Source: Phycisphaerae bacterium
Lineage (GTDB): Bacteria > Planctomycetota > Phycisphaerae > Sedimentisphaerales > Anaerobacaceae
Assembly (NCBI GenBank): GCA_017993835.1
Contig: JAGOLX010000027.1
Coordinates: 1-64,000, forward strand
Length of the DNA: 64,000 bases
Direction: 5' to 3'
The notes beneath the pieces are model-generated. The model saw nothing but the letters and a program-made list of their open reading frames with translations. It did no database searches and was not told where the DNA came from. A program made the translations under genes and the position numbers. Within the stretch, counting starts at the first letter, position 1. Every line of letters begins with the position of its first letter. Below are positions 17,501-24,508 of the stretch, piece by piece.

Positions 17501-18065
17501 CAGCGTCCAGGTCAAGGCCCGCGTGCTCAGCGGCGCCGTCTGGAGCGCGCTGCACGAGGTCGTCTTCGCGGTGGGCCCGGTTGCTGAAAGCCTCAGGATC
17601 AGCGAGATCATGTATCACCCCTCCGACACGGGCAATCCTGACGATCCGAACACGGAGTTCATCGAACTGACCAACATCGGCGACGAGACGATCAACCTGA
17701 ACATGGTCCGATTCACCAACGGCATTGACTTCGCCTTCCCGAGCGTCGAGGTGGCCCCCGGCGACTACTGCCTGGTGGTCAAGGACCTCGCGGCATTCGA
17801 GTCCAGGTACTCGTCCGGCCTGCCGGTTATCGGGCAGTACGCCGGCAGTCTCAGCAATGCCGGAGAGCGGATCGAACTCCAGGACGCCCTCGGCAAGGCC
17901 ATCCACAGTTTCCGCTACGAAGACAACTGGTACAAGGCCACCGACGGAACCGGCTACTCCCTGACAGTCATCGACCCATCGACCGCCGATCCGAACACCT
18001 TCGGCGATTCCAGCCTCTGGCTGCCCAGCAAAGAGCCCGGCGGATCGCCAGGGACAGGCGAGTGA
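14562..18065 (+). CDS. Large secreted CotH/lamin-tail surface protein
   Basis: 1167 aa with signal peptide (LVGCVCLFSIAGAALAG). Order: lamin-tail domain (about 33-160, VVNEVMASNVTSY, DDWIELFNTTD), a chitobiase/hexosaminidase C-terminal-like module (TEGATIYYTLDGKRPLD), a CotH kinase-like domain (about 320-690, GLRIHGG, NPKNAFRVNFRAEYG, YWGLYIMTERPN, FTLVPWDTEWAL), a second YTLDGSDP module, a galactose-binding-like segment, and a second lamin-tail domain at the C-terminus (ISEIMYHPSD, EFIELTNIGDETINLN). CotH proteins are atypical protein kinases in spore coats; similar giant proteins are abundant in Planctomycetota but their substrates are unknown. Probably an extracellular adhesive or modifying protein. 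It precedes the sorting-signal protein at 18245. Confidence 0.88.
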   Translation: MQFGWRRNSIFLCAYLVGCVCLFSIAGAALAGSPVVVNEVMASNVTSYADPQGEYDDWIELFNTTDAPVDAGGLYLTDDESEPRKWQIPTDNPSLTTIPAQGFLLIWADGDTGDPGLHADFGLGADGDVVALFDSDGRTLLDSISFGSQISDFSYGRNPDGGDVLIRMALPTPGESNVGIALKVVAQPQFSQQRGFQDGAFTLELATATEGATIYYTLDGKRPLDAGSRGLVGTQYTGPITIFTTTCVRAAAVKTGWLSSATVTHSYIFPYQVIRQSSSPAGFPTSWGGRAADYAMDQRVVEDAAYRDEIVDDLKSTPSVSIVVPNAEFFESGGIYASPTVTGDTSERAVSIEWIDPSTGERFGVNAGLRIHGGPYGRSGNPKNAFRVNFRAEYGLSRLEFPLFPDTDVTSFNSLALRSIWNYSWSGDSGGMAQRADYLRDAFARDTVRDMGRLTPYGRPIQVYINGLYWGLYIMTERPNASFAADHLGGDEDDYEILEAPSGYGASTTMDIVAGDEQVRAAWTALFAAADKDVTSSQGYEAVQAYIDIPTMIDYMLMVYYTGSRDAPVFLGDSYTPRNFYAIRQGDPASPFTLVPWDTEWALEDPSINRVNVVGVVNPHYLMDRLAANADFRMLLADRIYEQFYNDGALTKEQTKNRYLARADEIRGAIVGESARWGDEPRPSKPYTREDWLTEVSRLVNQYFSGRTQTVLNQLKNRGWYPSVEAPSFQIDGTDQHGGYAATGTSLGMVKSAGGAIWYTLDGSDPRVPGSEGTSTDLTLVAENAFKRALVPTAAIDDAWRSDSDFDDSTWARGHGGVGYERSFGYEDFFTINVQAPMYSKNASCCIRIPFEVADDDLQKTSSLSLSVRYDDGFVAYLNGVEVARANFTGEPAWNSKASASHPDDEAEILQMFSISEHIDKLKTGSNILAIHGLNESTSSSDFLISVELTAGTDDTGNGGTPGDPPLAAVRYTDLLTLNASVQVKARVLSGAVWSALHEVVFAVGPVAESLRISEIMYHPSDTGNPDDPNTEFIELTNIGDETINLNMVRFTNGIDFAFPSVEVAPGDYCLVVKDLAAFESRYSSGLPVIGQYAGSLSNAGERIELQDALGKAIHSFRYEDNWYKATDGTGYSLTVIDPSTADPNTFGDSSLWLPSKEPGGSPGTGE

Positions 18066-19026: not shown

Positions 19027-19151
19027 GGGGGCGCCGAGGCTGTGAAATAATCGATTCGGTCGCCCAAAAACCTCGTTTTCGACCCTGCCAGGGGGGGCAT
19101 TTTGCCCTATCTGGACATTTTTTCACAGCCTCGCCGCCCCCAAGCCCCCGG
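19027..19151. repeat. 125-bp element bounded by 21-bp inverted repeats
   Basis: GGGGGCGCCGAGGCTGTGAA at 19027-19046 (plus one more A) is inverted at 19131-19151 with a single mismatch. The enclosed sequence is AT-richer than the genes and has a 7-G run. The shape is that of a small MITE-like or REP-like element; it carries no ORF. Only one copy is seen in the window. Confidence 0.55.
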
Positions 19152-19163
19152 CATTTGGCGCAT

Positions 19164-19251
19164 TGGGCCAGCAGCATGAAGATGGAGGAAAAGACGGCAA
19201 GACAAGCTCGGGTCGAGCGACCGATTCTTCTACCTCCATGCTGCTGGCCCA
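19164..19251. repeat. 15-bp inverted repeat, spacing 58
   Basis: TGGGCCAGCAGCATG at 19164-19178 pairs perfectly with CATGCTGCTGGCCCA at 19237-19251. It directly follows the 19027-19151 element and lies in the 770-base gene-free stretch between the 18906 terminator and ffh. Confidence 0.5.
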
Positions 19252-19429
19252 AAGCGGGAAATGCCCGCCGCATTGCAGCGGATTCCGAAGATATCCGTTC
19301 ATTCCTTCCGACAGGCGTCCCCGCAATTCCGTGATGAACCTTTCCTTTTGGCCCCCCGACGCCAGCCCTCCCGGAAGGGTGCGATTCGTGTTTGTAGGCA
19401 GATTCTCCCAACCCTTGGGAATCGACTCT

Positions 19430-19709: not shown

Positions 19710-21143
19710 GTGTTCGAGTCTTTGACTGAAAAATTCAGTTCGGTCTTCCGGTCGCTTTCCGGCCGGGGGCGGATTACCGAGGCCAACGTCTCCGACGCCA
19801 TGAACGACGTCCGCAAGGCGCTGCTCGAAGCCGACGTGAACTACAACGTCGTCAAGCAGTTCTGCAAGGACGTCCGCGACAAGGCGGTCGGCGCCGAGGT
19901 CATCAAGAGCCTCCACCCGGGCCAGATGATGATCAAGATCGTCCATGACGAGTTGATCCGGCTCATGGGCCCGGTCGATACGCGGATTTACTTCGTCTCG
20001 CCCGGTCCGACGGTCATCATGCTGGCGGGCCTCCAAGGCTGCGGCAAGACAACGACCGCCGCCAAGCTGGGCAAGTACCTCGTCGCAAAGGGTCGCAACC
20101 CCCTGCTGGTCGCGGACGACCTCCAGCGACCCGCGGCCATCGAACAGCTTCGCATCCTCGGCGAGCAGCTCGGCGTTCCCGTCTACACGGACGAGACCAC
20201 CAAGGACGCGGTCAAGGTCGCCAGAGACGGCGTACGAAACGCCAAGGAGAACGGCCGGGACGTGGTCGTGATCGACACCGCCGGCCGGCTGCACGTCGAT
20301 GAAGAGATGATGACCCAGGCAGCCGACGTCGCCAAGGCGGTCACGCCGCACCAGATCTACCTGGTCTGCGACTCCATGACCGGCCAGGACGCCGTCAATT
20401 CCGCCAAGGAATTCAATGCCCGCCTCGAACTCGACGGCGTTATCCTCACCAAGCTCGACGGCGACGCCCGAGGCGGCGCCGCCCTGAGCGTCAAGGCCGT
20501 CACCGGAAAACCCATCAAGTTCATCGGGGTCGGCGAGAAGCTCGACAAGATCGAGGAGTTCCACCCCGACCGCATGGCCTCGCGCATCCTGGGCATGGGC
20601 GACGTGGTCACCCTCGTCGAGAAGGCCCAGCAGGAATTCGACAAAGAAGAAGCCGAGAAGATGCAGAAGAAGATGGCCAAGGGCAGCTTCGGCTTCGACG
20701 ACTTCCTCAAGCAGATGCAGACGGTCAAGAAGATGGGCGGCATCAAGGACATGCTCAAGCTCCTGCCCGGCATCGGCGGCCAGATCCCCGACGTGGACCT
20801 CGACGGCCAGGAACTCAAGCAGATGGAGGCCATCGTCTACTCGATGACCAAGGACGAGCGCCGCGATCCCGACCTGATCGACGGATCGCGTCGCCGCCGC
20901 ATCGCGGCCGGCTGCGGCATGGAGGCCAACGACGTCTCGACCCTGGTCAAGACGTTCAAACGAAGCCGGGACATGATGAAGGCCATCACCGGCGGCAGCT
21001 TCGGCGGGCTCAAGGCCCTCTTCTCCGGCGGCTTCAACATGGAGGCCATGAACAACGCCATGATGCACGGCCGCAAGATCAAGCAGCGGTCCGCGCGAAA
21101 ACGCGTCATCAAACGTCACGGGAAGATCAAGAAAAAGAAATGA
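19710..21143 (+). CDS. ffh: Signal recognition particle protein Ffh
   Basis: 477 aa, GTG start at 19710 behind AGGTAGAGGA. N domain ends near residue 90, G domain carries G1 GLQGCGKTTTAAKLG, DTAGR (G3) and TKLDGDARGG (G4), and the methionine-rich M domain contains GSRRRRIAAGCGM with a long basic C-terminus (RKRVIKRHGKIKKKK). The G2 region reads VADDLQRPAA, where most relatives have an Ala before the Asp. With 4.5S RNA and FtsY it targets nascent membrane proteins co-translationally. The stop overlaps the next start (ATGA). Confidence 0.95.
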   Translation: MFESLTEKFSSVFRSLSGRGRITEANVSDAMNDVRKALLEADVNYNVVKQFCKDVRDKAVGAEVIKSLHPGQMMIKIVHDELIRLMGPVDTRIYFVSPGPTVIMLAGLQGCGKTTTAAKLGKYLVAKGRNPLLVADDLQRPAAIEQLRILGEQLGVPVYTDETTKDAVKVARDGVRNAKENGRDVVVIDTAGRLHVDEEMMTQAADVAKAVTPHQIYLVCDSMTGQDAVNSAKEFNARLELDGVILTKLDGDARGGAALSVKAVTGKPIKFIGVGEKLDKIEEFHPDRMASRILGMGDVVTLVEKAQQEFDKEEAEKMQKKMAKGSFGFDDFLKQMQTVKKMGGIKDMLKLLPGIGGQIPDVDLDGQELKQMEAIVYSMTKDERRDPDLIDGSRRRRIAAGCGMEANDVSTLVKTFKRSRDMMKAITGGSFGGLKALFSGGFNMEAMNNAMMHGRKIKQRSARKRVIKRHGKIKKKK

Positions 21144-21472
21144 CGACGCGGAGTGAGAAAACGAGGATTTCCGTCGAGCAGTACCTCGAAGAGGTCGCTC
21201 GATTCTGCGACGACCAGTACGGCAACCAGATTCGCGACCGGTTCCAGGACATGCAAGGGACCAGCGAGCTGGCCATGCTGGCGGCGCCCACCTGCGACGA
21301 GCTGGTGGAGTTGCGGCGGGCCGTGGCCATCATGACACCCGCCGAGAAGCAGAGCGCCGACCGGCTCTCGGACGAGCAGATCGAGAAGATCGCTCTCGAT
21401 GCCCGCGTCGATCCCGCGAACTTCGCGATTTTTATGAACGGCTACGCTTTGGTTTGTAAACGTGTTTCGTGA
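21140..21472 (+). CDS. Small protein of unknown function coupled to ffh
   Basis: 110 aa. Its ATG overlaps the ffh stop, so translation is coupled. It is acidic and predicted helical (ISVEQYLEEVARFCDDQYG, DELVELRRAVAIMTPAEK, LSDEQIEKIALDARVDPANF). There is no membrane segment and no recognised family. It occupies the place where YlxM/HTH proteins occur next to ffh in Firmicutes, but no HTH is evident. A role in SRP regulation or stability is suggested only by position. A structured repeat element begins 4 bases after its stop. Confidence 0.65.
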   Translation: MTTRSEKTRISVEQYLEEVARFCDDQYGNQIRDRFQDMQGTSELAMLAAPTCDELVELRRAVAIMTPAEKQSADRLSDEQIEKIALDARVDPANFAIFMNGYALVCKRVS

Positions 21473-21475
21473 TTA

Positions 21476-21546
21476 GTTTGTAGTGTGCCCGTAAGGGCAT
21501 CTCTTCCCAAGTGAGGAAGATAACGCCTTGCGGCGTCACTACGAAC
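21476..21546. repeat. Cloverleaf-forming palindromic element
   Basis: Outer stem of 10 bp with one G-T pair (21476-21485 with 21537-21546) closes three consecutive hairpins: 486-490/495-499 (TGCCC/GGGCA), 502-507/515-520 (TCTTCC/GGAAGA) and 523-527/532-536 (ACGCC/GGCGT), all counted from 21000. Together they form a four-way junction of 71 bases. It is not a tRNA: no T-loop, D-loop or anticodon pattern matches. It lies between the ffh-linked gene and rpsP. Confidence 0.65.
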
Positions 21547-21578
21547 CGGTCTCGGAAATTACTCTATATAGGTGAGTT

Positions 21579-21746
21579 GCTGGAAAATGAAGGATTGGGC
21601 CTACTTTGGAAATGAAAAATCTCTTCATCGATTTTTCATTTCCAAACCGTGACGGTCTGGCGGAACACGGGGTAGGCCGATTCTTCAAGGAAATCGAGGA
21701 ATGAGATTTCCTTGAAGAATATAGGCCCAATCCTTCATTTTCCAGC
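21579..21746. repeat. Three-arm perfect-palindrome element
   Basis: A perfect 25-bp inverted repeat (21579-21603 with 21722-21746) encloses two further perfect hairpins: 17 bp (21605-21621/21630-21646) and 16 bp (21680-21695/21705-21720), plus a 5-bp CCGTG/CACGG stem (21647-21651/21666-21670). There are no mismatches in the three long stems. An alternative pairing GGCCTAC (21598-21604) with GTAGGCC (21672-21678) is possible. It is AT-rich compared with the genes and ends 25 bases before rpsP. Confidence 0.7.
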
Positions 21747-21770: not shown

Positions 21771-22202
21771 ATGGCAGTAAAACTCAGACTCACCCGCATG
21801 GGCCGACGGCATCGTCCCTTCTTCCGTCTCAACGCGGTCGATTCCCGCACGCCTCGTGACGGCAAGATCATCGAAAAGCTCGGGCACTACGACCCGCTCG
21901 AGAAGGACACGACCAAGCAGCTCGTGCTGAATCGCGAGCGCATCGAGTTCTGGCTTGGCCAGGGCGCCGTCCCCAGCGATACCGTATCCGAGATCCTGCT
22001 TCGCAACGGGATCAAACACAAGTACGCGAAGGACAAGGCCGCTCGCCAGGCCCAGGCCCGCAAACTGGCCCACGCCAAGGGCAGGCTGTTCACAAAGACA
22101 GAGCGCGTCCTCGCAGAGAAGAAAAAGGCCGCCGAAGAGGCTGCTGCAGCGGCAGCCGCAGCCGAGGCAAAGCCCGCCGAGGCGAAACCTGAGGGCGCGT
22201 AA
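21771..22202 (+). CDS. rpsP: 30S ribosomal protein bS16 with extended tail
   Basis: 143 aa. The N-terminal 80 residues are canonical bS16 (AVKLRLTRMGRRHRPFFRLN, DSRTPRDGKIIEKLGHYDP, RIEFWLGQGAVPSDTV). The remainder is a lysine-rich then alanine-rich low-complexity tail (KKKAAEEAAAAAAAAEAKPA), longer than in most bacteria (around 80-90 aa). It is a structural component of the 30S subunit. The gene is 25 bases downstream of a large palindromic element and is followed by a strong terminator-like hairpin before trmD; rimM, usually next, is absent. Confidence 0.95.
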   Translation: MAVKLRLTRMGRRHRPFFRLNAVDSRTPRDGKIIEKLGHYDPLEKDTTKQLVLNRERIEFWLGQGAVPSDTVSEILLRNGIKHKYAKDKAARQAQARKLAHAKGRLFTKTERVLAEKKKAAEEAAAAAAAAEAKPAEAKPEGA

Positions 22203-22345: not shown

Positions 22346-23047
22346 ATGCGGATAGACATCCTCACACTGTTTCCGGAGATGTTCGAGTCTCCCCTTCGCT
22401 ACTCGATCCTCAAGCGAGCCCAGGAACAGGGGATCGTCTCCATCTCGATCACGAACATCCGCGACTTCGCCAGCGACAACTACCGCAAGGTCGATGACCG
22501 GCCTTACGGCGGCGGCGCAGGCATGGTGATGATGTGCGCCCCCCTCTTCGCTTGCTTCGAGCACGTCGAGAAGCTCGCTCCGACCCGCGGTCGGGTCATC
22601 ATGCTGACTCCCCAGGGCGAGCCCTTCCGCCAGGCGAAGGCCCAGGAACTGGCCCGCGAAGAGCGTCTGATCCTGATCGCAGGTCGGTACGAGGGCTTCG
22701 ACGAGCGAATCCGGCTCGGCCTGAACGCCGAGCAGATCTCCATCGGCGACTACATCCTCAACGGAGGTGAGTTGCCCGCCATGGTCCTGGTGGACGCGGT
22801 GGTGCGCTTGCTGCCCGGCGCCCTCGGCGACGAGCAATCCGCCCAGGACGACTCCTTCAGCGACGGCCTGCTCGAATACCCCCACTACACCCGTCCCGAG
22901 ATCTTCCGCGACATGAAAGTCCCCGAGATCCTCCTCTCCGGCGACCACGCCAAGATCGCCCAATGGCGACGCCAGCAGGCGATGGAACGCACCAAGAACT
23001 GGCGACCCGACCTGCTCCCGAACGACCCGCCGGAAGGCGTTTCGTAG
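22346..23047 (+). CDS. trmD: tRNA (guanine-37-N1)-methyltransferase TrmD
   Basis: 233 aa, typical length. Begins [17 protein letters not shown]; has [22 protein letters not shown] and the SPOUT trefoil-knot signature [11 protein letters not shown]...[13 protein letters not shown]. It methylates G37 of tRNAs with a G at position 36 to prevent frameshifting. No Shine-Dalgarno sequence is evident directly before the ATG. The stop codon lies inside a REP-type repeat (23044-23128). Expected neighbours rimM and rplS are not here. Confidence 0.95.
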
Positions 23048-23128
23048 CACGGGCATCTTGCCCGTGAATCTCCCAGATCCACATGGGCGGGACGCCCATG
23101 CTACTCACGGGCAAGATGCCCGTGCTAC
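23044..23128. repeat. Triple-hairpin REP cluster overlapping the trmD stop
   Basis: A perfect 24-bp inverted repeat (23044-23067 with 23105-23128; GTAGCACGGGCATCTTGCCC at its left edge) surrounds an 8-bp hairpin (CATGGGCG 23082-23089, CGCCCATG 23093-23100). Each 24-mer is also a hairpin on its own, so the element is three tandem hairpins. The left unit supplies the TAG stop of trmD. Confidence 0.75.
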
Positions 23129-24432: not shown

Positions 24433-24508
24433 GTAGGGTGGGGCTTGCCCCACCGGTTCCTTTGACATCGACCGCTCAAGAGGTTCGTGGGGCAAGCTCC
24501 ATCCTACC
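24433..24508. repeat. REP-like inverted pair, GTAGGGTGGGGC family
   Basis: GTAGGGTGGGGCTTGCCCCA (start 24433) and the inverted GTTCGTGGGGCAAGCTCCAT (start 24484) form an imperfect palindrome about 76 bases long. A related short unit is at 62365-62395. Confidence 0.6.

Follow-up and report, generated by a model that had tools for sequence, protein, structure and literature searches.

Two dispersed palindromic repeats upstream of rpsP in a Phycisphaerae bacterium, one with a stop-poor sub-family found in frame within genes

Two palindromic elements lie between the ffh and rpsP genes in the window, i.e., the whole stretch of 64,000 nucleotides analyzed here. The explanation that best fits the data as a whole, and which is very probably correct, is that the element proximal to rpsP (element 2) is a non-autonomous MITE-like palindrome whose outer stem represents its terminal inverted repeats, and that the distal one (element 1) is a separate mobile repeat. 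We also put forward, as a plausible but tentative reading, that element 2 is a self-correcting mobile palindrome: once inserted, even within genes, its nested stems may serve as templates for their own repair and inversion, and one lineage may have given rise to a stop-poor coding sub-family spreading to many genes as in-frame protein insertions, independently of the Rickettsia elements. The main interest of these repeats lies in this coding sub-family and in the co-evolution of the arms within the same element.

Two mobile repeats between ffh and rpsP

The locus is organized in the order ffh, a 110-amino-acid ORF with no assigned function (21140..21472, + strand), elements 1 and 2, and the start codon of rpsP (21771..22202, + strand), which is located 24 nt past element 2. 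Genes were called here using a simple model of codon usage developed for the purpose. As proposed by an earlier sequence-only reading, element 1 (21476..21546, + strand) can be folded as a cloverleaf with a 10-bp outer stem and three hairpins, one of the ten pairs of the outer stem (GTTTGTAGTG/CACTACGAAC) being T.G. Element 2 (21579..21746, + strand; model match of 166 bits), of which the window contains a single copy, has the perfect 25-bp outer stem also described in that reading, formed by a left arm (21579..21603, + strand) and a right arm (21722..21746, + strand). This stem encloses two perfect hairpins on the + strand, hairpin A with a 17-bp stem (21605..21646, arms 21605-21621 and 21630-21646) and hairpin B with a 16-bp stem (21680..21720, arms 21680-21695 and 21705-21720).

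The folding energy of the 301-nt region was -150.3 kcal/mol, compared to -82.4 +/- 5.2 kcal/mol for dinucleotide shuffles (z = -13.1), and none of the 100 shuffles reached the value of the native sequence. A chance origin of both elements was thus dismissed, in agreement with the initial view that the perfection of the stems is beyond chance. The absence of an overlapping ORF, also noted earlier, holds true for real genes, but a mechanical ORF of 110 aa on the minus strand, not called coding, crosses the element region. A search of Rfam at a lax threshold between positions 18000 and 25000 gave no match at the elements, and only sub-threshold microRNA look-alikes were found elsewhere; these chance-like hits can be attributed to a long imperfect inverted repeat upstream of ffh (19134-19281, 57-nt arms, 75% complementary). 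ARAGORN detected no tRNA at the elements, and element 1, already described as lacking tRNA hallmarks, was not recognized as a tRNA or tRNA-like gene.

Many separate copies of each element were found when the genome of the window was searched with the region, and the suggestion that they are mobile palindromic repeats, for which a search for other copies had been advised, proved right for both. Element 2 is a dispersed repeat unit of ~165 nt. Among 61 genomes searched with a covariance model, the nine of the genus all contained it, as did five more of the family, each belonging to another genus; these genomes are draft MAGs, and the numbers of copies should be taken as minimum values. When named genomes were scanned with a pattern, element 2 was also found in MAGs of uncultured Phycisphaerae and Planctomycetota obtained by independent studies, and it is therefore not an artefact of a single assembly. 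The idea of nested insertions of unrelated hairpins was rejected for the copy in the window, since the three stems are dispersed together, as a single repeat unit. Two copies elsewhere (L030 and L031) are interrupted by arrays of another GTAG REP (GTAGCCCAGCCGCCC..GGCTGGG), i.e., by nested insertions, and the same REP also surrounds a Y1 transposase gene (L096). Three shortened relatives of ~106-140 nt in G007 (L199, L202, and L197) apparently miss part of the interior.

Signs of mobility were seen in the young copies of two genomes, G017 and G021, in which 9 of 23 copies were bordered by strong direct repeats of up to 11 nt, mostly 10, located at a fixed distance of ~7 nt outside the ends of the model; none were obtained with shuffled flanks. 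Direct repeats of 7 nt were observed at the same offset for further copies, including in G004 and G007. Given the fixed offset, the true ends of element 2 lie ~7 nt beyond those of the model (such as CTGGAGTTCTGCAAAATGG in G007), and the full terminal repeat of the copy in the window may likewise begin ~7 nt upstream of its left arm. Complementarity of the flanks beyond the model ends, considered as host sequence copied in inverted form, was found to be mostly the outer part of the terminal repeat. Element 2 thus combines two features of a MITE, terminal inverted repeats (with CTGGAGTTCTGCAAAA-type ends) and target-site duplications, the latter being of 7-11 nt in the youngest copies. In the genome of the window, target duplications of element 2 were not above chance. 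The orthologues of eight host genes provided empty sites. In two clean comparisons of this kind (GH127 and hydrogenase), the net insert was 165 nt, and a duplication was not visible.

A search with the terminal repeats recovered only full copies, shortened variants of ~106-140 nt, and fragments at contig ends. In the five genomes analyzed, no transposase or longer element with element 2 ends was found, nor any parent insertion sequence with the one terminal pattern used, the draft genomes being broken at repeats. With respect to a phage vector, one hairpin pattern gave no match in viral contigs. Mobilization of element 2 would be ensured by a transposase acting in trans.

Element 1 is a mobile repeat separate from and unrelated to the element 2 family. 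Its covariance model matched positions 21476-21548 with a score of 94.7 bits. The element consists of a head-to-head pair of GTAG-tagged REP units, GTAGTG-TGCCCGTAAGGGCA (21480..21499, + strand) and GTAGTG-ACGCCGCAAGGCGT (21523..21542, - strand), around a third, central hairpin. The GTAG tetranucleotide is found at the foot of a short hairpin, and at least 40 copies are present in the genome of the window; 28 of the 30 copies examined were located outside genes, frequently at 10 nt or less past a stop codon. Element 1 was likewise present in the nine genomes of the genus, and it also occurred in three other genomes belonging to the family. GTAG REPs have already been reported from Planctomycetes (PMC3733652). 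The sequence of element 1 is conserved and its two-sided changes were not above shuffles, so that no structural claim is made from its covariation. Genes encoding Y1 transposases are present in the genome, and element 1 lies within 1.5 kb of one of the five Y1 hits of this genome (L094) and of two of 26 other loci, an association too weak to claim a RAYT as its mobilizer.

Two copies of element 1 (L056 and L058) fall inside called ORFs, and the REP pair may also be read in frame. The window contains two other GTAG-tagged repeats. The first (23044-23128) is a GTAG REP pair from a family other than that of element 1, with a perfect 24-bp inverted repeat (GTAGCACGGGCATCTTGCCCGTGA) whose arms are 37 nt apart; its translation (TGILPV...GQDARAT) matches many places in the genome, some of them inside long open frames. 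The other (24433-24507) is an inverted repeat (GTAGGGTGGGGCTTGCCCCAC) with arms that are 90% complementary.

Coupled changes in the arms and inverted interiors of element 2

In an alignment of 25 copies of element 2, 98.2% of the stem cells were able to pair, and 28 of the 53 pairs had changed on both sides. Two-sided cells numbered 101, compared to 23.9 in shuffles, so the covariation proposed earlier as a check was observed for element 2 but not for element 1. Orthologous copies were then compared between species, although these pairs are few and were aligned so as to fit the structure: five intergenic comparisons, which are not fully independent because two share the same copy (L117), gave 31 two-sided changes where 5.4 were expected, and three in-gene comparisons gave eight where 1.2 were expected. 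Coupled changes of the arms continue after insertion. Moreover, at four orthologous intergenic sites, the interior of element 2 was inverted between species, whereas the three in-gene pairs kept the same orientation.

Template switching between the arms of inverted repeats is known to homogenize these arms and to invert spacers (PMC8604942). Such switching at the DNA level would homogenize the stems of element 2 and flip its spacer, and would explain both the coupled arm changes and the flipped interiors. As the sole cause, however, it does not predict that stems diverge less than loops, as was observed between genes (0.14 versus 0.51) and inside genes (0.07 versus 0.24). This difference instead favors the alternative that the arms remain paired owing to selection on structure, either for mobility or for a role as RNA or DNA, and not to template switching. 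We regard this alternative as possible but rather doubtful, as coupled changes also accumulated inside coding sequences, where no benefit of an RNA structure is anticipated, and as selection on pairing leaves the flipped interiors unexplained. The coupled arm changes and spacer flips recorded naturally in the orthologous pairs could be used to distinguish template switching from an effect of selection on RNA structure.

The rpsP leader in sister species

The leader of rpsP was read in six sister species, using as anchors rpsP and the 110-aa ORF, a conserved upstream neighbor. Both elements are found in this leader in G000. In G006, element 2 alone is present and inverted, with its hairpins in the opposite order, and G004 contains a remnant that looks like a shortened outer stem. 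In G002, one short hairpin was found where element 1 would be, and the leaders of G003, G005, and G008 contain neither element. The rpsP leader is thus an insertion polymorphism and not a conserved leader. The connection of the elements with rpsP is incidental, and neither of them is a dedicated rpsP regulator: this candidate, suggested earlier as a structured leader acting on rpsP, was rejected in view of the polymorphism of the locus, as the elements are not conserved upstream of the orthologues. A structure ending 24 nt upstream of the rpsP start codon may nonetheless affect rpsP expression.

A broader version of this proposal, in which element 2 would be a structured RNA leader regulating rpsP or translation-related genes in cis, can draw on the proximity to rpsP, on the retention after insertion of stems that diverge less than the loops, and on the location of intergenic copies, 40 of which lie between co-directional genes and 17 between divergent genes, compared to four between convergent genes. 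On the transcribed strand of co-directional copies, a slight excess of G.T over A.C pairs was also observed (41 versus 23), but this may stem from the G.U preference of the model itself, and no such bias was seen in the in-gene copies (17 G.T versus 22 A.C). The polymorphism of the rpsP leader, the absence of an Rfam match, and the occurrence of copies upstream of many unrelated genes, as well as within ORFs in both orientations, make a cis-acting leader very unlikely.

Copies within genes and comparison with known repeats

The copies of element 2 fall into two groups. Group I includes the copy in the window and all of G017, G007, and others; its copies contain many stop codons and are found between genes. 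Group II, characterized by the stem GGAAAAAGGCAGATCGGGCC, is poor in stop codons. Copies located in frame within ORFs, with a coding signal on both sides, accounted for 18 of 30 in group II compared to 3 of the 72 other copies (Fisher p = 1.6e-9), and by eye these three exceptions appeared to be group II copies with mutated ends. Since the sub-family contains few stop codons, an insert can be read through, and would add ~55 amino acids to the host protein. The commonest insert peptide is SEKGRSGLYSSTKSLGSISLKNG...PPQSRPDLPFS; other frames and the other orientation are also used.

The host genes belong to unrelated families, several of them in core metabolism, and encode 4-phosphoerythronate dehydrogenase PdxB (pdxB), NAD synthetase (nadE), PurQ (purQ), RNase R (rnr), an AhbC-like radical SAM protein, an [FeFe] hydrogenase, GH127, a URO-D protein, and a PfkB/HAD fusion. 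Orthologues of the host genes in sister species are devoid of the insert, the clearest empty-site case being PurQ, with six orthologues that are 79-90% identical outside the insert. Inserts at the same site were also shared by two species, in PdxB (G000 and G005) and in GH127 (G000 and G004). In PdxB, the sole host mapped on a structure, the insert is located between residues 302 and 308 of 3oet, where the NAD-binding part meets the C-terminal domain. The same pdxB gene (L020) contains, at residues ~131-156, a second in-frame insert of the REP type (TGILPV...GQDAPAT...GRDAHA), which is common to the G005 orthologue.

The host genes would be translated through the insert. An alternative, in which the RNA would lose the in-gene copies or the ribosome would jump over them as with mitochondrial bypassing elements, could be envisaged because a 160-nt hairpin in an mRNA is an obstacle to translation and the hosts include core-metabolism genes. 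It is most improbable, as the inserts keep a length that fits the host frame and an open frame, the latter being unnecessary for removal or skipping, with a coding signal on both sides, and as two species retain insert peptides at the same site.

The best-known palindromes of 100-150 bp read in frame within genes are those of Rickettsia and Wolbachia (PMC3767692, PMC10969869), and shorter REP insertions within genes are known in other organisms (PMC3733652). The present example in Planctomycetota is large, and is accompanied by matched empty alleles in sister species and, in the same genomes, by a closely related intergenic sub-family; it makes the question of the passage from selfish DNA to protein testable.

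The two elements can be compared to three known types of repeats. Element 1 shares with GTAG-tagged REP pairs the GTAG tag followed by a dinucleotide before a 5-bp stem, the head-to-head arrangement, and the many intergenic copies close behind stop codons; it differs from them by the third, central hairpin between the two units and by the weak association with Y1 (RAYT-type) genes. Like prokaryotic MITEs, element 2 is short, non-coding by itself, and bounded by terminal inverted repeats, with target duplications of 7-11 nt in young copies; in contrast to them, it carries two further long perfect hairpins within its outer repeats, and no parent insertion sequence was found for it in the five genomes analyzed.

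Finally, group II behaves, by analogy, as an RPE-like element in Planctomycetota, outside the Rickettsiales. As with the palindromic elements of Rickettsia and Wolbachia, palindromes are found in frame inside unrelated genes and at the same site in the orthologues of related species (PMC3767692, PMC10969869). The likeness is one of behavior, and group II is accordingly classed as working like these elements and not as a member of their families. Element 2 differs from them by its phylum, by its nested three-stem layout of ~165 nt, by a sister sub-family with stop codons that, in the same genomes, is found at intergenic sites only, and by interiors that are flipped between species.
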